Assembly (NCBI GenBank): GCA_021844425.1
Contig: JAKBTL010000076.1
Location: forward strand, 62,001 to 126,000
Direction of reading: 5' to 3'
Source: Actinomycetes bacterium
Lineage (GTDB): Bacteria > Actinomycetota > Acidimicrobiia > Acidimicrobiales > RAAP-2
DNA length: 64,000 nucleotides
Made by a program: the position numbers and the translations under genes. Below the pieces are notes generated by a model. That model did no database searches. It had not been told where the DNA came from and saw only the letters and a list, made by a program, of their open reading frames with translations. Numbering within the stretch: the first letter of the stretch is position 1; each line of letters starts with the position of its first letter. Shown in pieces: positions 15,615 to 47,507 of the stretch.

Positions 15615-16529
15615 TCAGCGGGCGACCTTCGCCTCCCCGCCGGAGTAGTCGTAGAAACCGCGTCCGGTCTTCTTGCCGAGGAGACCCGCGTCGACCATTC
15701 GTGCGAGCAGTGGCGGGGGAGCGTAGAGGGGCTCCTTGAACTCCTCGTACAAGGAGTTCGCGACGGCCATGGTCGTGTCGAGACCGATGAGGTCGGTGAG
15801 CGCGAGCGGTCCCATCGGGTGCGCGCAGCCCTTCACCATGCCGGTGTCGATGTCCTCGGGAGTCGCGAAGCCCGACTCCATCATGCGGATCGCGGAGAGC
15901 AGGTACGGGACGAGGAGCGCATTGACGATGAACCCCGCGCGGTCCTTCGAGCGGATCGCGTGCTTGCCGAGCGCGCCCACCGCGAACTCCTCGGCGCGCT
16001 CGATGGCCTCCTTCGAGCTGAGAAGGGAGGCGACCACCTCGACCAGCGGAAGGATCGGCACGGGGTTGAAGAAGTGGAGCCCGACGACCTGCTCGGGACG
16101 CTGGGTGGCCATCGCGAGCTTCATGATCGGGATGGAGGAGGTGTTGGAGGTCAGCAGCGCGTCGGGCGCCTCGACCACCTTGTCCAGGGCTTCGAAGACG
16201 CGCACCTTCTCGGGCTCCGCCTCGACGACGGCTTCGACCACCAGCTGGCAGTCGCCGAGAGTGCCGACGTCCGTGCCAAGCTCCATGCGCCCGAGCGCCG
16301 CCTCACCCTCCTCCTCGGTGAGCTTTCCGGCGGAGACAGCTCGTCGGATCGACGCCTCGATGCGGTTCCGCCCGCGTGCGAGGGCTCCGGGGTCGAGCTC
16401 CACCACGGTCACCGACCGTCCCTTGCGGGCGCACACCTCGGCAATGCCTGAGCCCATGAGCCCGCAGCCGACCACGCCGACCCGCTGGATGCTCTCTGCT
16501 CCCACTGCGACCACCTCTTTCGTCCCCAT
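15615..16529 (-). CDS. fadB2: 3-hydroxybutyryl-CoA dehydrogenase, FadB2-like
   Basis: NAD(P)-dependent oxidation of 3-hydroxyacyl-CoA in beta-oxidation or butyrate/PHB metabolism. 304 aa from the ATG at 16529. The Rossmann motif VGVVGCGLMGSGIAEV is at about residue 18, then SNTSSIPIMKLA and the catalytic His block VVGLHFFNPVPILPLVE. The C-terminal domain contains the family block GPLALTDLIGLDT and ends GKKTGRGFYDYS. Overall pattern is very close to mycobacterial FadB2. Convergent with the phosphatase gene; divergent from the Ddn-like gene. Confidence 0.92.
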   Translation of the reverse strand: MGTKEVVAVGAESIQRVGVVGCGLMGSGIAEVCARKGRSVTVVELDPGALARGRNRIEASIRRAVSAGKLTEEEGEAALGRMELGTDVGTLGDCQLVVEAVVEAEPEKVRVFEALDKVVEAPDALLTSNTSSIPIMKLAMATQRPEQVVGLHFFNPVPILPLVEVVASLLSSKEAIERAEEFAVGALGKHAIRSKDRAGFIVNALLVPYLLSAIRMMESGFATPEDIDTGMVKGCAHPMGPLALTDLIGLDTTMAVANSLYEEFKEPLYAPPPLLARMVDAGLLGKKTGRGFYDYSGGEAKVAR

Positions 16530-39263: not shown

Positions 39264-39285
39264 CTGATACCCTCCTGGGTATCAG
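39264..39285. promoter_or_regulatory. CstR-type operator, site 1
   Basis: Nine-base arms CTGATACCC and GGGTATCAG form a perfect inverted repeat around four bases. The core ATACC-N6-GGTAT (39267-39282) is shared with sites at 41699, 42992 and 44499. It lies 27 bp before the small CxxC gene, where it would block or overlap the promoter. Confidence 0.75.
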
Positions 39286-39308
39286 ACTGCGACAACGGGA
39301 GGTCGAGA

Positions 39309-39479
39309 ATGTGCCGTGCCGTGAGGTGCAGGACGTGCGGGAAGACGACGTGGGCCGGCTGCGGCCAACACGTCGACCAGGTGATGCGGCGAGTGCCCGC
39401 GTCCCAGCGCTGCCCTGGCCACCCCAAGCCGACTGGAAGCCGGCAGTCGGTGCTGCGTCGCCTGTTCTCTCGCTCCTGA
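39309..39479 (+). CDS. Small Cys-rich (zinc-ribbon-like) protein
   Basis: 56 aa: MCRAVRCRTCGKTTWAGCGQ, then HVDQVMRRV and QRCPGHPK. Six Cys, with CxxC and CGQH, look like a metal-binding or thiol site. A Shine-Dalgarno GGGAGG is 6 bp upstream. I recall near-identical small proteins widely in actinobacteria, always unannotated or hypothetical. Basic tail RQSVLRRLFSRS. The CstR-type operator in front suggests a role in persulfide or thiol stress. Confidence 0.8.
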   Translation: MCRAVRCRTCGKTTWAGCGQHVDQVMRRVPASQRCPGHPKPTGSRQSVLRRLFSRS

Positions 39480-39486
39480 GACGACG

Positions 39487-40058
39487 TCACCTTTCCAGTC
39501 TCCCGCGCTGCTCCTTCTCGCTCGTCGGGCCGGGTGAGACAGGAAAGAGCAGGTCGTCGAGTGGTCGGTCGTGGGTGAGCGGGTCGGCCACGTCGGCCAG
39601 GAGCGCGCTCACCGTGCACACGCGGAGCTTCTCCGCCTCTTTGACCGGGAGCGTGTCGGTGAGGTGGACGCCACCTGGACCCAGACGCACGATCCGTTCC
39701 ATCGCGCCAGCGACGAGCGGTCCGTGCGTGGCCACGACGGTCGGGCCGACGACGAGGAGGCGGTCCGCCGCGGACGATGCGACGGCATCGGCGAGCGCGC
39801 GAGGGGCGACGGCCTCTCCGGGGTTGCTTCGGAGGTCCTGGCAGGCGTAGCCGAAGTACGGCTCGACGACGCGCTCGCTGACCGGCGGCCCGGTCGACCG
39901 GAAGACGAAAACGTCGTCGTCGCCTTTGCGACGACCGGCCGCAGCTCGCCGTCGGGCAACCGTTCGACCTCGCAGGGAGCCAACTCCGTGCCCACCTCCG
40001 CGGCGACGGCGCTCGTCAGCGCTGCGGGCACCGAGCCGGACACGAGTCGAGCGGTCAT
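39487..40058 (-). pseudogene. PRPP-synthetase-like gene with deletions and a frameshift
   Basis: Starts normally at the ATG at 40058: MTARLVSGSVPAALTSAVA, ELAPCEVERLPDGELRPVVA. A missing base near 39925 shifts to the frame DDDVFVFRSTGPPV. Two in-frame deletions follow: PPVSER joins EPYFGYACQDLRSNPGEAV (about 25 residues lost), and ADRLLVV joins VATHGPLVAG (over 100 residues lost, including the central catalytic and PRPP-binding parts). The C-terminus LTDTLPV ... VSALLADVA ... RPLDDLL is intact. It cannot be functional. Confidence 0.82.
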
Positions 40059-40317
40059 TCGGCACTTCTGCTTGCGCGTTCGAAACGTGTTCCAGCCAGG
40101 TTCCAGGTTCCAGGCTCCGAAGGCCTGGGCGGCGCATCGAAAGCGGTGGGGCCAGGCGTGCCTCAAGGGTCGGCAGCTACCCGGGCCTCCCACAGGGCCG
40201 TTGGTCCCCACGCGGTGCACCTGCCAGGGTCCGTGGAGACCTCGCGGCCATTCTTGGGCCCATCGACCCTGGCGCCGAGCGTCGGCCCGGGGGAAGGTGG
40301 CAGCGGAGGTGGCGATC

Positions 40318-41649
40318 ATGTTCGAAGATCGCGTCGACGCGGGCCGGCGGCTCGCGGAGAGGCTCATCCATCTTCGAGGCGACGGCGTCGTCGTGCTCGG
40401 CCTCCCCCGGGGTGGGGTGCCGGTAGCCTTCGAGGTCGCCAGCGCGCTCGGGGCGCCGCTCGACGTCATCATCGTCCGCAAGCTCGGCGTGCCGTTCCAG
40501 CCGGAGCTTGGGATGGGAGCCATCGGCGAGGGCAACGTGCGCGTGGTCGACGAAGACGTCATCCGGCGTGCAGGGATCACGCAGGCAGAGATCGCGGCCG
40601 TCGAAGCGCGCGAACGGACGGAGCTGGAGCGACGGGCGCAGCGCTTCCGCGGCGACCACCCCCCGGTCCCGCTCTCGGGCCGCACGGCAGTAGTCATCGA
40701 CGACGGCATCGCGACCGGGTCGACCGCTCGGGCCGCGTGCCAGGTCGCGCGAGCCCAAGGCGCGGCCAAGGTGATCCTCGCGGTGCCGGCCGCGCCACGA
40801 GGCTGGGAGTCGCGGATCGGCTCGGATGCCGACGAGCTGGTCAGCCTCGCCACGCCCGAGTCGTTCTTCGCGATCGGCCAGTTCTACGACGACTTTTCCC
40901 AGACCACCGACGAAGAGGTGGTCGACCGCCTTGAGCGAGCGCGCCTCGGCACCCCCGCGGCCGCGCCGTCGAGAGCGGGAACGTACGATCCGCCGACGCG
41001 CGACGAGGACGTCGAGGTCCAGGCCGGCTCCGTGCGTCTGGCAGGGCACCTCGCGCTCCCCGAGCACCCTATCGGGGTCGTGTTGTTCGCCCACGGCAGC
41101 GGCAGCAGCCGCCACAGCCCCCGGAACCGCTACGTCGCCGGCGTGCTCGAGCAGGCGGGGATCGGCACCCTGCTGTTCGACCTGCTCACCGCGGAGGAAG
41201 AGCTCGACCGGGCGAACGTGTTCGACATCCCGCTGTTGGCTCGGCGCCTCTCGGAGGTCACCCGCTGGCTGCGAGGCCAACCTGACCGCGTGAGCCTCCC
41301 GATCGGGTACTTCGGGGCGAGCACCGGGGCCGGCGCGGCCCTGTGGTCGGCCGCGGAACCGGGCGCGGGCGTCGCGGCTGTCGTCTCCAGAGGTGGGCGT
41401 CCGGACCTCGCCGCACCACGCCTCCCCCGGGTCACCGCCCCGACGCTCCTCGTCGTGGGCGGACGCGACGAAGTCGTCTTCGCCCTCAACCGCGACGCGC
41501 AGAGTCAGCTGACCTGCAAGAGCAGCCTGGTCGTCATCCCCGGAGCCTCCCACCTCTTCGAGGAGCCCGGCACCTTGCGCGCGGCCGCAGAGGCCGCCCG
41601 AGATTGGTTCGCCGGCCATTTCGGCTCCGTCCCGGAGCGTGCGGGCTGA
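40318..41649 (+). CDS. Phosphoribosyltransferase fused to a dienelactone-hydrolase-like domain
   Basis: 443 aa from the ATG at 40318. Residues ~1-220 are a type I PRTase: VVVLGLPRGGVPVAFEVA, VRKLGVPFQPELGMGAIGEG and the PRPP loop TAVVIDDGIATGSTARAA. Residues ~235-440 are an alpha/beta hydrolase: GVVLFAHGSGSSRHSPRN, IGYFGASTGAGAALWSAA (nucleophile elbow) and VIPGASHLFEEPG. Fusions of this type are common in actinobacteria, often next to stress genes and PRPP-synthetase-like genes; here that neighbour is the decayed divergent gene. Substrates unknown. Confidence 0.88.
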   Translation: MFEDRVDAGRRLAERLIHLRGDGVVVLGLPRGGVPVAFEVASALGAPLDVIIVRKLGVPFQPELGMGAIGEGNVRVVDEDVIRRAGITQAEIAAVEARERTELERRAQRFRGDHPPVPLSGRTAVVIDDGIATGSTARAACQVARAQGAAKVILAVPAAPRGWESRIGSDADELVSLATPESFFAIGQFYDDFSQTTDEEVVDRLERARLGTPAAAPSRAGTYDPPTRDEDVEVQAGSVRLAGHLALPEHPIGVVLFAHGSGSSRHSPRNRYVAGVLEQAGIGTLLFDLLTAEEELDRANVFDIPLLARRLSEVTRWLRGQPDRVSLPIGYFGASTGAGAALWSAAEPGAGVAAVVSRGGRPDLAAPRLPRVTAPTLLVVGGRDEVVFALNRDAQSQLTCKSSLVVIPGASHLFEEPGTLRAAAEAARDWFAGHFGSVPERAG

Positions 41650-41698
41650 CTGGCACAGAGAGGTCGCACGGGCACGAGAGCGGGGCTGATCGGCGGGA

Positions 41699-41714
41699 AT
41701 ACCCCGGCAGGTAT
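41699..41714. promoter_or_regulatory. CstR-type operator, site 2
   Basis: ATACC-CCGGCA-GGTAT, the same ATACC-N6-GGTAT pattern, 100 bp before the thioredoxin gene. Confidence 0.7.
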
Positions 41715-41813
41715 GGTCGTTGTGCTTGGTCGGAGCTGCGAGGCAGCTCTCGGAGCAGGTCCGAGGCGGCCGTTCCAACAGCCGGCCCGAGAGAGGGCCG
41801 AGAGGGAGGCACC

Positions 41814-42185
41814 ATGGCTACGGTGGCGTTGAACAACGAGAACTTCGAAGAGACCGTGAAGTCGAACGAGACGGTGCTCGTCGACTTCTGGGCCAGTTGG
41901 TGTGGGCCGTGCCGCATGTTCGCCCCGGTCTTCGAATCGGCGTCGGTCGAGCATCCTGACATCGTGTTCGCGAAGGTCGACACCGAAGCCGAGCAGGAGC
42001 TCGCTGCGCGCTTTGGGATCATGTCGATCCCCACGCTCATGGCATTTCGCGACAACATCTTGCTGTACGCCCAGCCCGGAGCGCTGCCTGGTCACGTCCT
42101 CGAAGAGCTGATCACCAAGGTGAAGGAGCTCGACATGGACGACGTTCGCCGCCAAGTCGAAGAACGGGCAGGCGCCGCGTCGTAA
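41814..42185 (+). CDS. trxA: Thioredoxin
   Basis: 123 aa from the ATG at 41814 after GGGAGGCACC. Thioredoxin fold with FWASWCGPCRMFAPV active site, VDTEAEQELAARFGIMSIPTLM and the cis-Pro. A ~15-residue C-terminal extension (MDDVRRQVEERAGAAS) is beyond the usual domain. It would reduce disulfides or persulfides in the cytoplasm. The operator site 2 upstream suggests regulation by the persulfide sensor. Confidence 0.93.
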   Translation: MATVALNNENFEETVKSNETVLVDFWASWCGPCRMFAPVFESASVEHPDIVFAKVDTEAEQELAARFGIMSIPTLMAFRDNILLYAQPGALPGHVLEELITKVKELDMDDVRRQVEERAGAAS

Positions 42186-42228
42186 GCGCCGGCGCTGGAA
42201 CGCTGGCTACCCGGACGCATCGCTCAGG

Positions 42229-42313
42229 ATGATCGCCCGACGACTCGGCATGCGCCATGATCGCCCGGTGACTGCGGCACGCGCCATGATCGCCCGGTGA
42301 CTGCGGCACGCGC
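42229..42313 (+). repeat. Three tandem ~29-bp repeats overlapping the PIG-L gene start
   Basis: Copies at 42229-42256 (28 bp, diverged), 42257-42285 and 42286-42313; the last two are near identical. Each begins atgatcgcccg. The GTG start of the deacetylase gene lies in the third copy, so each copy brings a possible start region. No coding across the repeat. Confidence 0.92.
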
Positions 42314-43001
42314 ACCGAGAAGCCACGACCTCCCGTCCGCCAGATCGGTCCTGGCGGTCTGCGCGCACCCCGACGACGAGAGCTTCGGCTTGGGAGCCGT
42401 GCTCCACCGCTTCGTCGAGGGCGGCGCCCAGGTGGCCTTCCTCTGCTTCACCCGAGGCGAGGCGTCCACCCTGGGCACCCCCGGACCTGCGCTGGGTGAG
42501 CTGCGTCGCGCCGAGCTCACGCGTGCGGCCGCTGAGCTCGGCGTACGCCGGGTGGAGCTACTCGAGCATCCCGACAGCTCGTTGGCCTCCGAACCGCTCG
42601 AGGTGCTGGCCAGAGAGGTGGCGGACATGACCGCCGAGGCCGAGGCCGATCTCGTGGTCGTCTTCGACGACGACGGCGTCACCGGGCATCCCGATCACCG
42701 GCGCGCCACCGAGGCAGCTCTTGCCGGCGCGCCGGAGCTGCCCGTGCTGGCGTGGACTCTGCCCCGCCAGGTTGCCGACACGCTGAACGACGAGCTCGGC
42801 ACGTCGTTCCGGGGGCATGACGAGCACGCGATCGACATCGTCCTGCACGTGGACCGCACCATCCAGCGCCGCGCGATCGCCTGCCACGAGAGCCAATGCG
42901 ACGGCAACCCTGTGCTGGCGCGTCGCCTCGCCTTGCTCGGGGACGACGAGTGCCTCCGCTGGCTCCGTGCACCTGGGTGCGGCATGCCTACATACGGGTA
43001 G
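42297..43001 (+). CDS. PIG-L family deacetylase
   Basis: 234 aa from a GTG. Metal-binding motif AVCAHPDDESFG near residue 20 and TGHPDHRRA near residue 130 define the LmbE/PIG-L fold. Members deacetylate GlcNAc conjugates in mycothiol (MshB) or are mycothiol S-conjugate amidases (Mca). The setting among thiol genes favours a mycothiol-related substrate, which is inference. The end of the gene contains operator site 3. Confidence 0.88.
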   Translation: MTAARAPRSHDLPSARSVLAVCAHPDDESFGLGAVLHRFVEGGAQVAFLCFTRGEASTLGTPGPALGELRRAELTRAAAELGVRRVELLEHPDSSLASEPLEVLAREVADMTAEAEADLVVVFDDDGVTGHPDHRRATEAALAGAPELPVLAWTLPRQVADTLNDELGTSFRGHDEHAIDIVLHVDRTIQRRAIACHESQCDGNPVLARRLALLGDDECLRWLRAPGCGMPTYG

Positions 43002-43007
43002 GGGTAT
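42992..43007. promoter_or_regulatory. CstR-type operator, site 3 (one mismatch)
   Basis: ATACG-GGTAGG-GGTAT: matches ATACC-N6-GGTAT except one base. It overlaps the stop codon of the deacetylase gene and lies 55 bp before the rhodanese-MBL gene. A TATATA stretch at 43005-43010 may be its -10. Confidence 0.65.
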
Positions 43008-43061
43008 ATAGTGAGAAGATCGACCCTGACCATCGATCCTGAACCTGCACGGAGGAGACCG

Positions 43062-44168
43062 ATGAACGTTGGCCCCGGAGCAGTGCCCGAGATCACCGCC
43101 ACAGAGCTGGCAGCAGTGCTCGGGACCCCCGACGCCCCAGAGCTGCTCGACGTCCGAGAGCCAGAGGAGTTCGACGCGTGGGCGATGGCCGGCGCGCGCA
43201 ACGTCCCCCTGGCGCGATTGGCGACGGAGATCGACGACGTCGTGGGGGATCGCGAAGTCGTCGTGATCTGCGCGAGCGGCTCGCGGTCCGCGCGAGCGGT
43301 CGTGGCGCTGCGCTCGGCGGGGATCCCGGCACGCAACCTGGCAGGCGGGATGCTCGCATGGGCCGCCGTCTACGACACCGCGATCCTCGAGCTCGGCGCG
43401 GCGCGCGTCGTCCAGGTCCGCCGCCGGGGCAAGGGCTGCCTCTCCTATGTCGTCGGCGCGAAGAACGAGGCGTTCGTGGTCGATCCTTCGCTCGACGTCG
43501 AGCACTACCTCGGCGTGGCCGAACAGCACGGATGGCGGATCACCCGGGTGTTCGACACCCACTTGCACGCCGACCACCTGAGCGGCGTCCGCGCGCTGGC
43601 CTCGGCGACGGGAGCCTCGGTGCACCTGAACCCTGCCGACGGCTACCGCTTCCCCTTCGAGCCGCTCGACGACGAGCAATGGTTCAGCCTCGGGGGCCAA
43701 GAGCACTTCGTCGTGACGGTCCTGCGCTCCCCCGGCCACACGCCGGGCTCGACGATCTACGAAGTGGGCGGCCGCGCGCTGCTGACCGGCGACACCCTGT
43801 TCGTCGACGGCGTGGGCCGCCCGGACCTCGCGGACCATGCGGAAGCCTTCGCCCGTGAGCTCCACCGATCCTTGCACACCAAGGTGATCGCGATGCCGGT
43901 GGACGCGACCGTGCTTCCCGCCCACTACGGCGAGACGGTCGCCGTCACGCCGCACAAGGTCGTCGGTGCGTCGCTCGGAGAGCTCCGCTCCTCCCTTCCT
44001 CAGCTCTCGTGGCCCGAGGACCGCTTCGTGGAGTGGGCGTCCAGCCGGGCCCGGCCGCGACCGCCCCACTACCGCGAGATCGTCAGCGTGAACGCCGGCG
44101 CCGCTCCGGCTCCGCTCGTCGACGACCTGCGCCGGCTCGAGCTCGGACCGAACCGCTGCGCCGCGTGA
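43062..44168 (+). CDS. Rhodanese-metallo-beta-lactamase fusion, persulfide dioxygenase-like
   Basis: 368 aa from the ATG at 43062 after GGAGGAG. N-terminal rhodanese domain: PELLDVREPEEFDAWAMAGA and the active loop VVICASGSRSARAV (Cys). C-terminal MBL domain: FDTHLHADHLSGVRALA, VTVLRSPGHTPGSTIYEV, LLTGDTLFVDGVGRPD, AHYGETV, the ETHE1-type Fe site. Predicted to oxidise glutathione, mycothiol or CoA persulfide to sulfite, with the rhodanese moving sulfane sulfur. The usual PDO fusion order is MBL first; here it is reversed. CstR-type operator upstream. Confidence 0.87.
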   Translation: MNVGPGAVPEITATELAAVLGTPDAPELLDVREPEEFDAWAMAGARNVPLARLATEIDDVVGDREVVVICASGSRSARAVVALRSAGIPARNLAGGMLAWAAVYDTAILELGAARVVQVRRRGKGCLSYVVGAKNEAFVVDPSLDVEHYLGVAEQHGWRITRVFDTHLHADHLSGVRALASATGASVHLNPADGYRFPFEPLDDEQWFSLGGQEHFVVTVLRSPGHTPGSTIYEVGGRALLTGDTLFVDGVGRPDLADHAEAFARELHRSLHTKVIAMPVDATVLPAHYGETVAVTPHKVVGASLGELRSSLPQLSWPEDRFVEWASSRARPRPPHYREIVSVNAGAAPAPLVDDLRRLELGPNRCAA

Positions 44169-44186
44169 CGTGCACGTCGGCGACGC

Positions 44187-44456
44187 TCACGCCAGGCGCG
44201 TGAACATCCGCTGCAGCTCCTCCAAGGGGTAGCCCTGCTCGGCGGCCTCCACAGGATGCTCGATGCAGAACGTGAGGCCCGCCGCGATGATCTTGAACCC
44301 GACCTGCTCGAGCGCTTTGGTCGCGGCGGAGAGCTGCGTCACGATGTCCTTGCACTCGCGGCCTTCGGCGAGCATCCGGTCGACCGCCTCGACCTGACCT
44401 GCCGCTCGATGCAGACGCCGGCGCGCATCCTTCACCACGTCATCAGGCAGTTCCAC
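44187..44456 (-). CDS. cstR: CsoR/DUF156-family repressor, CstR-like persulfide sensor
   Basis: 89 aa from the GTG at 44456, preceded by GAGGAGG at ideal spacing (a GTG at 44477 is upstream). CsoR fold: DDVVKDARRRLHRAAGQVEAVDRMLAEG, ECKDIVTQLSAATKALEQV, FKIIAAGLTFCIEHPVEAA. Copper-sensing CsoR uses Cys-His-Cys; here both Cys are kept but the His position is Gly, as in CstR where Asn occupies it. This points to a dithiol persulfide sensor. Site 4 lies 43 bp upstream for autoregulation. Confidence 0.85.
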   Translation of the reverse strand: MELPDDVVKDARRRLHRAAGQVEAVDRMLAEGRECKDIVTQLSAATKALEQVGFKIIAAGLTFCIEHPVEAAEQGYPLEELQRMFTRLA

Positions 44457-44498
44457 TCCGGCCTCCTCGCATCGCACTCAGGCCCCCACGTGGTGATC

Positions 44499-44514
44499 AT
44501 ACCTACTGGGGTAT
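44499..44514. promoter_or_regulatory. CstR-type operator, site 4
   Basis: ATACC-TACTGG-GGTAT in the divergent region between the sensor gene and the hypothetical gene at 44646. A perfect match to the half-sites of sites 1 and 2. Confidence 0.75.
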
Positions 44515-44645: not shown

Positions 44646-45152
44646 ATGCAACCGCAGACCGGCGCCGCAACCGAGACTCCTGAACGACACGAGCCGACCC
44701 TCCATGAACTCGCCGAAGCTCTGGCGCACCACGTCGCGGCGAACGGAACGGTGCGGCCAGGTGTCGACGCCCAGCTCGTCGCCGAGAACGGATGGCACGG
44801 ACGGCTGATCGACGTCCTTGGCATCCTCACCGAGGACACAGCGCGCATGGGCTACCTGGCGGGGGGCCGCAAGCCCGAGGAGCTGCTGACATGGCTCCCG
44901 CTCTGGGCCGACTCGCCGTACTCCCTCGAGCAGATCCGCACCATCGTGACGAGCGCCGGCTGGGACCCCGAGCCGTTCGGGGTCGTCGTGCGCAACGGCC
45001 TCTTGGAGCGGCTCGTCTACCGCCCCGACGGGTCGTTGCGACGCGTCCACGGTGAGCTCGCCGGAGCCTGGCTGAGCGACCAGTTCGCGTTGGCGGACGA
45101 CGAAGAGATCCTGCGCGCCGCGCGTGCGGTGATCGGCGGGGACCAGACCTGA
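44646..45152 (+). CDS. Hypothetical protein divergent from cstR
   Basis: 168 aa from the ATG at 44646 after GGAAGGAGG. Soluble, no membrane segment and no recognised domain. Stretches HELAEALAHHVAANGTVRPG, GWHGRLIDVLGILTEDTARM and PYSLEQIRTIVTSAGWDPEPF suggest a mostly helical fold. The shared divergent operator suggests co-regulation with the persulfide sensor, so it is a candidate new member of that response. Confidence 0.7.
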   Translation: MQPQTGAATETPERHEPTLHELAEALAHHVAANGTVRPGVDAQLVAENGWHGRLIDVLGILTEDTARMGYLAGGRKPEELLTWLPLWADSPYSLEQIRTIVTSAGWDPEPFGVVVRNGLLERLVYRPDGSLRRVHGELAGAWLSDQFALADDEEILRAARAVIGGDQT

Positions 45153-45427: not shown

Positions 45428-46342
45428 TCAGTCCGCGTCCTCTGCCCGCACGGCGATCGCGAGAAGCCGGGAGCTGACGGAGCTGGGCGGATGGCTGGTC
45501 GCCCAGATCGCCCGTATCGTCCGTTCGAGCCTGAGGTCTGCGCAACTGATCGCGACGAGGCCCCCGTCCCGTAGCTCGGCGCGAACCGCGAGCGCGGAGA
45601 CCACCGCGGGCGCCGTGCCGCTCATGGCCGCGGCCTTGATCGCGGTCGTGGAGCCGAGCTCCATGGCCGCAGTGACACCAAGGCCGCGGGTCGCCAGCGC
45701 GTCGGTCAGCACCTCTCTCGTGCCCGACCCCGGCTCACGTAGGACGAGCGGCGTGCCCGCCAGCTGGCTGGCGGTGATCGGCCGGCGGCGACGGCTCCAG
45801 GGATGTCCGGCACCGACCACGATCACCAGCTCGTCGGCGAGCAGTCCCCGGGACCGGAGTCGTCCGGGGGGTCGGGGGCCTTCGATGAACCCGAGATCTG
45901 CCTGCCCGCGGGCGACCAGGCCCGCGACGTGGACGGTGTTGCCCATCTCGAGCGAGACCCTGGTGCTCGGGATCTCCGCCGAGAGCCGATGAAGCCACCG
46001 CGGCAGGAGGTACTCGGCGACGGTGAGGCTCGCAGCCAGGCGAAGCTGGGAGTGGCGATCTCTGCGCAGGGCCGCCGCGCCGGCGAGCAGCGTGCGCATG
46101 TCGCCGAGGACGGCCACAGCCCATTCCGCGGTGGCCATGCCCGCGGGAGTGAGCCGGGCTCCCCTGGTCGAGCGATCCAGGAGGGGGATGCGCAGCAGCC
46201 GTTCGAGTGCCCGAAGCCGCATGCTGGCTGCGGGCTGAGAGACGCCGTGCGCGGCGGCTGCGGCGCTGATGGACCCGAGCTCTCCGACGCTCACCAGCAG
46301 ATCGAGCGAGGGCAGGTCGGGGTACGGCTCGGGGAGCGGCAC
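45428..46342 (-). CDS. LysR-family regulator, YeiE/CysL-like
   Basis: 304 aa. N-terminal wHTH (SLDLLVSVGELGSISAAAAAHGVSQPAASMRLR, given here only as position 12-45) and effector domain with ASLTVAEYLLPRWLHRL, GQADLGFIEGP, LVLREPGSGTREVL and MELGSTTAIKAA. The GFIEGP and REPGSGTRE blocks are typical of the YeiE/CysL branch, which responds to sulfite in enterobacteria. It lies 53 bp downstream of the YeiH-like exporter gene in the same direction, echoing the known yeiE-yeiH pairing. Confidence 0.88.
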   Translation of the reverse strand: MPLPEPYPDLPSLDLLVSVGELGSISAAAAAHGVSQPAASMRLRALERLLRIPLLDRSTRGARLTPAGMATAEWAVAVLGDMRTLLAGAAALRRDRHSQLRLAASLTVAEYLLPRWLHRLSAEIPSTRVSLEMGNTVHVAGLVARGQADLGFIEGPRPPGRLRSRGLLADELVIVVGAGHPWSRRRRPITASQLAGTPLVLREPGSGTREVLTDALATRGLGVTAAMELGSTTAIKAAAMSGTAPAVVSALAVRAELRDGGLVAISCADLRLERTIRAIWATSHPPSSVSSRLLAIAVRAEDAD

Positions 46343-46394
46343 GAGCCGACCATAGAGCCTGGCCGCTCGCCGGGCCGGTGCCCCGGCGGCGGCG

Positions 46395-47507
46395 TCAGAG
46401 CGTGCCGGTCATGGCCTGCAGCCCGAGGCTCGCCAGACCGACCGTGAGCCAGAGGATCGCACCGAGCACCAGCGGCCGGGCACCGGCTCGACGGATGTGG
46501 CCCACGTCGGTCGACAGCCCGATCGCCCCCAGCGCCGCGGTGATCATCCAGATCGAGAGCTCCGACATCGGGTGGTGCCAGCTGGCCGGCACCAAGCCGA
46601 CCGTGTTGGCCGCGACGGCGGCGACGAAGACGACGATGAAGAACGGCAGGACACGGCGAAGGTCGACCCGCCTCCCCGATGACGCATCGCGCGTCGCACC
46701 GCTGCGCCAGCCCCTGAGCGACGCCAGGGCGAGGCTGATCGGGATGATGGCGAGCGTGCGGGTGAGCTTCACGATCACGCCGTACGACGCGGCCGCGTGG
46801 CCGTAGGTCGTGGAGGCGGCGACGACCGAGGACAGGTCGTTGATCGCGGTGCCGGCCCACAGCCCGAAGGTTCGTTGCGAGAACCCGAAGGCGTGGCCGA
46901 TGAACGGGTAGAGGAGCACCGCGACCACGTTGAACGTGAATATGGTGGCGATCGCGTAGCTGACGTCGGCCTCGTCCGCGGAGATGACCGCGTCCGTTGC
47001 CGCGATCGCCGACGCGCCGCAGATGGCGGTGCCGACCCCGATCAGCGTGCGCAGGTCTGCGGGCAGCCGGAGCAGGCGACCAGCCAGCCAGGCCATCGCG
47101 AGGGCCGCGACGAGGGTGCCGACGAGGACCGGCAAGGAGCCGGTGCCGGTCGAGACGACCTGGCCAAGCGAAAGCCCGAAGCCGAGCACGACGATCGACC
47201 CTTGGAGCACCTTCTTCGCGGTGAAGGAGATCCCGGGCAGAAGACGCGGCGAGGGCCTCTTCACCAAGGAGATCACGATCCCGCAGAGGATCGCGATCAC
47301 CGGCGCGCCCACGACGGGAACGAGCCCGCCGAGCAGCGTGGCGACCAGCGCGATCGCAGCGGTGACGCCGGCTCCCGGGAGGAGCGCCCACGCGCTGCCC
47401 GCCATGCTCTCCCACGGGGTCGCCCGCGTGAGCGCCACCGCGGCGGCGCTGCTGCTGGCGATCTCGATTCGCGCACCATCCATCTCCACGTCGTGGGCTG
47501 CCGGCAC
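46395..47507 (-). CDS. yeiH: YeiH-family putative sulfate/sulfonate exporter (UPF0324)
   Basis: 370-aa integral membrane protein with about ten helices. Conserved blocks: SFTAKKVLQGSIVVLGFGLSL, GVGTAICGASAIAATDAVI, FGLWAGTAINDLSSVVAAS and VIVKLTRTLAIIPI. The family is annotated as putative sulfate exporters on slender evidence. Context with the YeiE-like LysR and the sulfur oxidation genes supports export of sulfate, sulfite or an organosulfonate. Confidence 0.88.
   Translation of the reverse strand: MPAAHDVEMDGARIEIASSSAAAVALTRATPWESMAGSAWALLPGAGVTAAIALVATLLGGLVPVVGAPVIAILCGIVISLVKRPSPRLLPGISFTAKKVLQGSIVVLGFGLSLGQVVSTGTGSLPVLVGTLVAALAMAWLAGRLLRLPADLRTLIGVGTAICGASAIAATDAVISADEADVSYAIATIFTFNVVAVLLYPFIGHAFGFSQRTFGLWAGTAINDLSSVVAASTTYGHAAASYGVIVKLTRTLAIIPISLALASLRGWRSGATRDASSGRRVDLRRVLPFFIVVFVAAVAANTVGLVPASWHHPMSELSIWMITAALGAIGLSTDVGHIRRAGARPLVLGAILWLTVGLASLGLQAMTGTL

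Follow-up and report, generated by a model that had tools for sequence, protein, structure and literature searches.

The CsoR family includes repressors that respond to reactive sulfur. In S. aureus, CstR is a persulfide repressor of this family that has the Cys-x-Cys signature and controls sulfur-detoxification genes. A small Cys-rich protein, MymT, is a target of the copper regulon in M. tuberculosis. YrkD of B. licheniformis is also a Cys-x-Cys persulfide repressor of the CsoR family and acts on sulfur-detoxification genes (PMC9918477). In S. coelicolor, ScCsoR (SCO0620) binds ATACC-N6-GGTAT, uses Cys37 and Cys66, is released by polysulfide, and controls the genes of PDO, rhodanese and TauE together with its own gene (PMC7533328). 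Copper regulators elsewhere, namely RicR and CsoR of G. thermodenitrificans, bind similar sites (PMC7533328), and the CstR-like protein TTHA1953 of T. thermophilus gave no response to NaHS (PMC10318464).

Palindromes and the genes behind them

The window, i.e. the whole stretch of 64,000 nucleotides that was analysed, contains three exact copies of the ATACC-N6-GGTAT palindrome and one with a single mismatch, all at the places reported in the initial annotation. That annotation also noted no further match in the 64 kb. Indeed, none exists at one mismatch or fewer, and allowing two mismatches adds just the positions 15655 and 63474, no more than chance predicts. First-order Markov simulations of the window (300 runs) yielded on average 0 exact palindromes versus three observed, and 0.077 palindromes with at most one mismatch (maximum 2) versus four observed; thus a chance origin is ruled out. 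The source assembly comprises 3.0 Mb in 138 contigs and is 91.8% complete. The genome-wide search that had been suggested found a single exact palindrome outside the window, on contig C44 at the gene of an MMPL-family transporter, which brings the exact total to four; a further six have one mismatch, including that of the window.

The genes that had been claimed to follow the palindromes are all present. The operator ATACCCTCCTGGGTAT (39267-39282) starts 42 bp before cys56 (39309-39479, plus strand), a member of a conserved family, which encodes a protein of 56 amino acids with five cysteines; this operator contains TANNNT (TACCCT). The operator ATACCCCGGCAGGTAT (41699-41714) lies upstream of the gene of a thioredoxin with the WCGPC motif (41814-42185, plus strand; PF00085, E 1.2e-26; TIGR01068 above the cut-off). 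The thioredoxin gene is possibly co-transcribed with the downstream gene (42297-43001, plus strand) of a PIG-L deacetylase/amidase of the BshB/Mca kind (PF02585, E 1.2e-30), which scores under the cut-offs of all thiol-specific NCBIfam models. The operator with one mismatch, ATACGGGTAGGGGTAT (42992-43007), overlaps the PIG-L stop codon and precedes the gene of a rhodanese-metallo-beta-lactamase (MBL) fusion (43062-44168, plus strand; PF00581 and PF00753). Judging by its domains, the fusion is a probable persulfide dioxygenase/sulfurtransferase; it does not reach the cut-off of the Blh model NF040641 (42.3 of 625 bits). Finally, ATACCTACTGGGGTAT (44499-44514) is situated between the divergent genes of the sensor, a CstR-type repressor of the CsoR family (44187-44477, minus strand), and of u168, a protein of 168 amino acids (44646-45152, plus strand).

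A scan of genome contigs revealed ten MAGs with relatives of u168, and six of these (L042, L043, L045-L048) are syntenic with the locus. In all six, a site with at most one mismatch occurs both before the thioredoxin gene and between the CstR gene and its divergent partner. In three of them, L042, L043 and L047, a site also stands ahead of the rhodanese-MBL gene; there the fusion adjoins CstR and is 83-93% identical to that of the window. L042 and L043 also retain the cys56 site. The operators of cys56 and of the rhodanese-MBL gene are identical to those of the window in both L042 and L043. The rhodanese-MBL gene of L048, in contrast, had no upstream site with one mismatch or fewer. The gene order trx-(DUF302)-PIG-L is maintained among the relatives. 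Taken together, the palindromes are very probably binding sites of a repressor sensing reactive sulfur.

The DUF302 gene between trx and PIG-L is seen in L045 (4056-4454), L046 (4001-4399; confirmed by Pfam) and L048 (2838-3233), and is absent from the window. One of the plasmid islands of sulfur genes (L194) likewise contains DUF302.

The core of the system is not new, as the identical operator and a polysulfide-sensing repressor have been published for S. coelicolor (PMC7533328). The two circuits share the operator, a CsoR-family sensor with two cysteines, and persulfide dioxygenase and rhodanese as (here predicted) targets. However, thioredoxin, cys56, u168 and MMPL are added in the present case, and the rhodanese and MBL domains are fused. 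The sensor also resembles S. aureus CstR and YrkD in its description as a Cys-x-Cys repressor of the CsoR family; to our knowledge, thioredoxin, cys56, u168 and MMPL have not been described in the regulons of these two repressors.

The sensor and the specificity of the palindrome

The sensor is a clear member of the CsoR family (PF02583, E 4.7e-20, 72 bits versus a cut-off of 22.8). It has Cys-Gly-Cys where copper-sensing CsoR and RicR have Cys-His-Cys, glycine replacing the histidine ligand, and the same is true of all six syntenic relatives. This agrees with the earlier statement that, as in CstR, both cysteines are kept and the copper-ligand histidine is missing. The best sequence matches in PDB are 7mq1, 7mq2 and 7mq3, with alignments that span residues 22-82 only and have low identity; these structures were deposited as CsoR, and we take them to be the persulfide sensor CstR of S. 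pneumoniae. At the histidine position 7mq1 has asparagine. By these sequence features the sensor is classified as a CstR-like member of the CsoR family.

The sample of the class consisted of 119 genomes, in which 92 of 95 CsoR-family genes could be typed: 63 have Cys-His-Cys and 29 have Cys-x-Cys, with one additional match that is gapped. Counting sites with up to one mismatch within approximately 320 bp upstream, the palindrome accompanies 21 of the 29 Cys-x-Cys genes versus none of the 63 Cys-His-Cys genes. The two types also fall apart (support 0.991) in a tree from whose alignment the three diagnostic columns had been removed, although a single gapped sequence is misplaced; the tree is made of sequences other than an experimentally verified CstR. 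Given these counts and the tree split, the palindrome marks the persulfide type in this class. Thus it tells apart, in these genomes, two types of regulators that are easily mixed up in annotation, where the term is 'metal-sensitive transcriptional regulator'.

One could suppose that the sensor is instead a regulator of copper or another metal, of the CsoR/RicR kind, and that cys56 is a copper metallothionein similar to mycobacterial MymT. In M. tuberculosis the operator is indeed similar and one target is a small Cys-rich protein; the palindrome resembles the sites of RicR and of G. thermodenitrificans CsoR (PMC7533328), the top functional-family model match of the sensor is RicR (43 of 175 bits), and a CopC gene was found near one plasmid copy of cys56. 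However, the sensor lacks the histidine ligand, none of the copper-type genes of the class carries the palindrome, and the same genome has a separate Cys-His-Cys CsoR adjoining a CopA-like ATPase on contig C27, with no palindrome within one mismatch. Moreover, in contrast to MymT, cys56 tracks Cys-x-Cys sensors only, and its neighbours are sulfur genes. In the 119 genomes, a Cys-x-Cys sensor was present in 16 of 21 genomes with cys56 versus 13 of 98 without it (Fisher p 2.7e-8), and copper sensors had no excess in cys56 genomes (p 0.48); these p values are too optimistic, as the genomes are related and their independence is overstated. The missing histidine, the absence of the palindrome from copper-type genes and the lack of co-occurrence between cys56 and copper sensors led us to reject copper regulation, and a metal-sensing role is highly improbable.

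A partial CsoR-like frame next to a CopA-like fragment was observed at the end of contig C56 (230-361; L009).

In all likelihood, the regulon is a persulfide (sulfane-sulfur) stress response under a CstR-type repressor. This reading, already given in the initial annotation, is supported by the distribution of the palindrome between the two sensor types and by the fact that related MAGs keep sites at corresponding genes. The missing NaHS response of TTHA1953, the low Blh score of the fusion and the cases that lack a site or a sensor count against it. In the proposed mechanism, the reduced sensor would occupy the ATACC-N6-GGTAT sites and thereby cover the promoters of cys56, trx(-PIG-L), rhodanese-MBL, its own gene with u168, and MMPL. 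Persulfide would then link two cysteines of adjacent protomers, and the repressor would let go. Among the products of the released genes, rhodanese-MBL would oxidise excess sulfur and thioredoxin would reduce it, and binding or export of the excess is possible as well. We infer the DNA binding of the sensor, its effector and the functions of all regulon proteins from sequence.

The cys56 family and its promoters

Relatives of cys56 were found in 60 of 296 genomes of the class, in 48 of 397 genomes sampled over the phylum, and on 75 actinobacterial plasmid records, where they are mostly unannotated. The operator lies at most 130 bp upstream of cys56 in 19 of 29 other relatives from the class and in all six syntenic ones (25/35), at most 150 bp upstream in 8 of 34 genes from the remaining phylum, and at cys56 in 7 of 9 plasmid loci examined. 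All sensor genes typed beside cys56 encode the Cys-x-Cys kind (29/29, some loci overlapping), and so do the plasmid ones (8/8). The plasmid islands carrying cys56 contain genes of rhodanese, MBL, TauE/SafE, DsrE, DUF302 and Trx. This comparison links a widespread, mostly unannotated family to the response to persulfides in Actinomycetota at large and on their plasmids. The initial annotation had nominated both genes of unknown function for this response: the case is strong for cys56, given the site in 25 of 35 relatives and the co-occurrence with the sensor, whereas u168 is limited to one clade.

For the SUL module of Antarctic Arthrobacter plasmids, an unnamed small protein has been listed, to which the accessible part of the publication assigns no regulation, operator or family (PMC6305408). 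The plasmid pA8H1 of this group carries cys56 at a distance of 85 bp from an upstream palindrome, and its neighbours there are a Cys-x-Cys sensor, MBL, rhodaneses and TauE. As cys56 occupies that place on pA8H1, the unnamed protein is very probably cys56.

Two distant relatives of cys56 were seen on viral contigs.

Ten of the 35 relatives have no site, and a Cys-x-Cys sensor is missing from five of the sampled class genomes that carry cys56; thus some cys56 genes are controlled otherwise. In two genomes, G031 (locus L023) and G008 (L025), the CstR palindrome is missing and another palindrome, AAATGTCCGGACATTT, is located just upstream of cys56. Since no CsoR-family gene was found in either genome, another regulator may act at the cys56 genes with AAATGTCCGGACATTT.

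A distinct architecture was observed in 20 different cys56 promoters, where the final AT of the palindrome is the AT of the ATG codon. All of them have T at site position 7, creating TANNNT at -13 to -8, compared to 3 of 24 unfused sites (p 1e-9). Conversely, a Shine-Dalgarno-like stretch is present in none of the 20 fused versus 20 of the 24 unfused sites. The operator, promoter and start codon seem to be fused, since the palindrome ends in ATG, holds a -10 box and is not accompanied by a ribosome site. This fits a leaderless transcript with the -10 box inside the operator, a compact regulatory design in which the repressor would cover the promoter, the transcript start and the start codon at once. 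The cys56 copy of the window is of the unfused kind. The sensor and the operator being of an already known kind, the new part consists of the unknown members of the regulon, above all cys56, and of the fused operator.

An alignment of 35 cys56 sequences shows no variation at C2, C7, C10, C18, H21 and C35. The last ligand, C37 or H38, forms either C-x-C or C-x2-H in each of 85 inspected sequences, which were collected with a search pattern that fixed the earlier cysteines and left this ligand free. An exchange of Cys for His at this position would suit a metal ligand. Sequence comparison with solved structures provided no usable PDB relative of cys56, a fold search with the predicted model gave no match, and a literature search on the sequence motif returned nothing relevant. 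From sequence, the most likely role of cys56, although we would put it at somewhat below even chances, is that of a small zinc-thiolate protein taking up or shuttling sulfane sulfur, or shielding thiols.

Alternatively, the regulon may be as described above and cys56 may be a zinc-finger regulator or adaptor, e.g. a CstR partner or anti-repressor, that does not handle sulfur. The constant C-x-C or C-x2-H pattern of the last ligand is typical of a structural zinc site; the predicted model contains a hairpin with the C7xxC10 knuckle and a helix beginning after H21, and there are weak matches to the DUF702/LRP1 zinc finger, both below the cut-offs (15.1 of 20.6 bits and 14 of 42 bits). However, the model is only moderate (pLDDT 75.7, pTM 0.46), and cys56 is frequently alone at its own operator, apart from the sensor gene. 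On balance, this role is rather unlikely. The sulfur-handling role can be extended, more tentatively, to the whole family: cys56 might be a hitherto overlooked protein dedicated to sulfane-sulfur homeostasis in actinobacteria, accepting or shuttling persulfide by means of zinc-thiolate chemistry, and in the class it would most commonly be controlled by a short palindrome that combines operator, -10 box and start codon on a leaderless transcript.

The MMPL transporter, u168 and adjoining genes

The exact palindrome on contig C44 (35582; L004 1501-1516) encloses the ATG of an MMPL-family transporter frame (Pfam 124 bits). Two further operators are found in L047 between an MMPL gene, 83% identical to that of C44, and a TauE/SafE gene. 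On the plasmid pRHL3 of R. jostii RHA1, cys56 is found together with genes of a rhodanese, an MMPL protein and a Cys-x-Cys sensor, and operators are present. The arrangements on C44, in L047 and on pRHL3 suggest that MMPL is a conserved target, and the MMPL gene of C44 is assigned, by its site, the fifth promoter of the regulon, outside the window. In the accessible portions of the literature found for MMPL and persulfide, MMPL was met only in an unrelated module. A gene of a luciferase-like monooxygenase is divergent from the C44 MMPL gene.

The u168 protein has no conserved cysteine. It is helical in its predicted model (pLDDT 82.8, fair); the fold search gave no match (best E 1.5), and no solved structure usable by sequence was found. 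No relative of u168 was found in 295 other genomes of the class. The protein is 70-90% identical across the six syntenic relatives. In the window as well as in L042 and L043, the operator directly precedes u168. L045-L048 differ in that cys56 is inserted after the CstR operator, ahead of u168 and on the same strand; thus both genes of unknown function follow one operator there. In the four remaining MAGs of the ten (L044, L049, L050 and L051), u168 is situated apart from CstR, and the fetched stretch contains no site with one mismatch or fewer. Hence the link of u168 to the regulon, as read from gene positions, is positional and clade-limited, and our best guess is that u168 plays an accessory part in the response to sulfur. 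It could also be that u168 just neighbours the operator and has no functional part in the response, consistent with the four MAGs where it is away from CstR and with the lack of conserved cysteines; but the shared operator and strand in L045-L048, the adjacent operator in the window, L042 and L043, and the identity level in the syntenic relatives make this unlikely. The MMPL transporter and the clade-specific u168 are thus nominated as candidate persulfide-response genes.

Adjoining the regulon, the window contains genes of a LysR regulator similar to YeiE and of a putative sulfate exporter of the YeiH family (45428-47507). In L048, an operator at 2319 separates YeiH (minus strand) from trx (plus strand). 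Near-perfect short repeats catgatcgcccggtgactgcggcacgcgc occur between trx and PIG-L of the window (42240-42310). A ribose-phosphate pyrophosphokinase-like frame at 39487-40137 (minus strand) has partial matches only, and since its similarity to L042 is split into several pieces, it may be a decaying gene.
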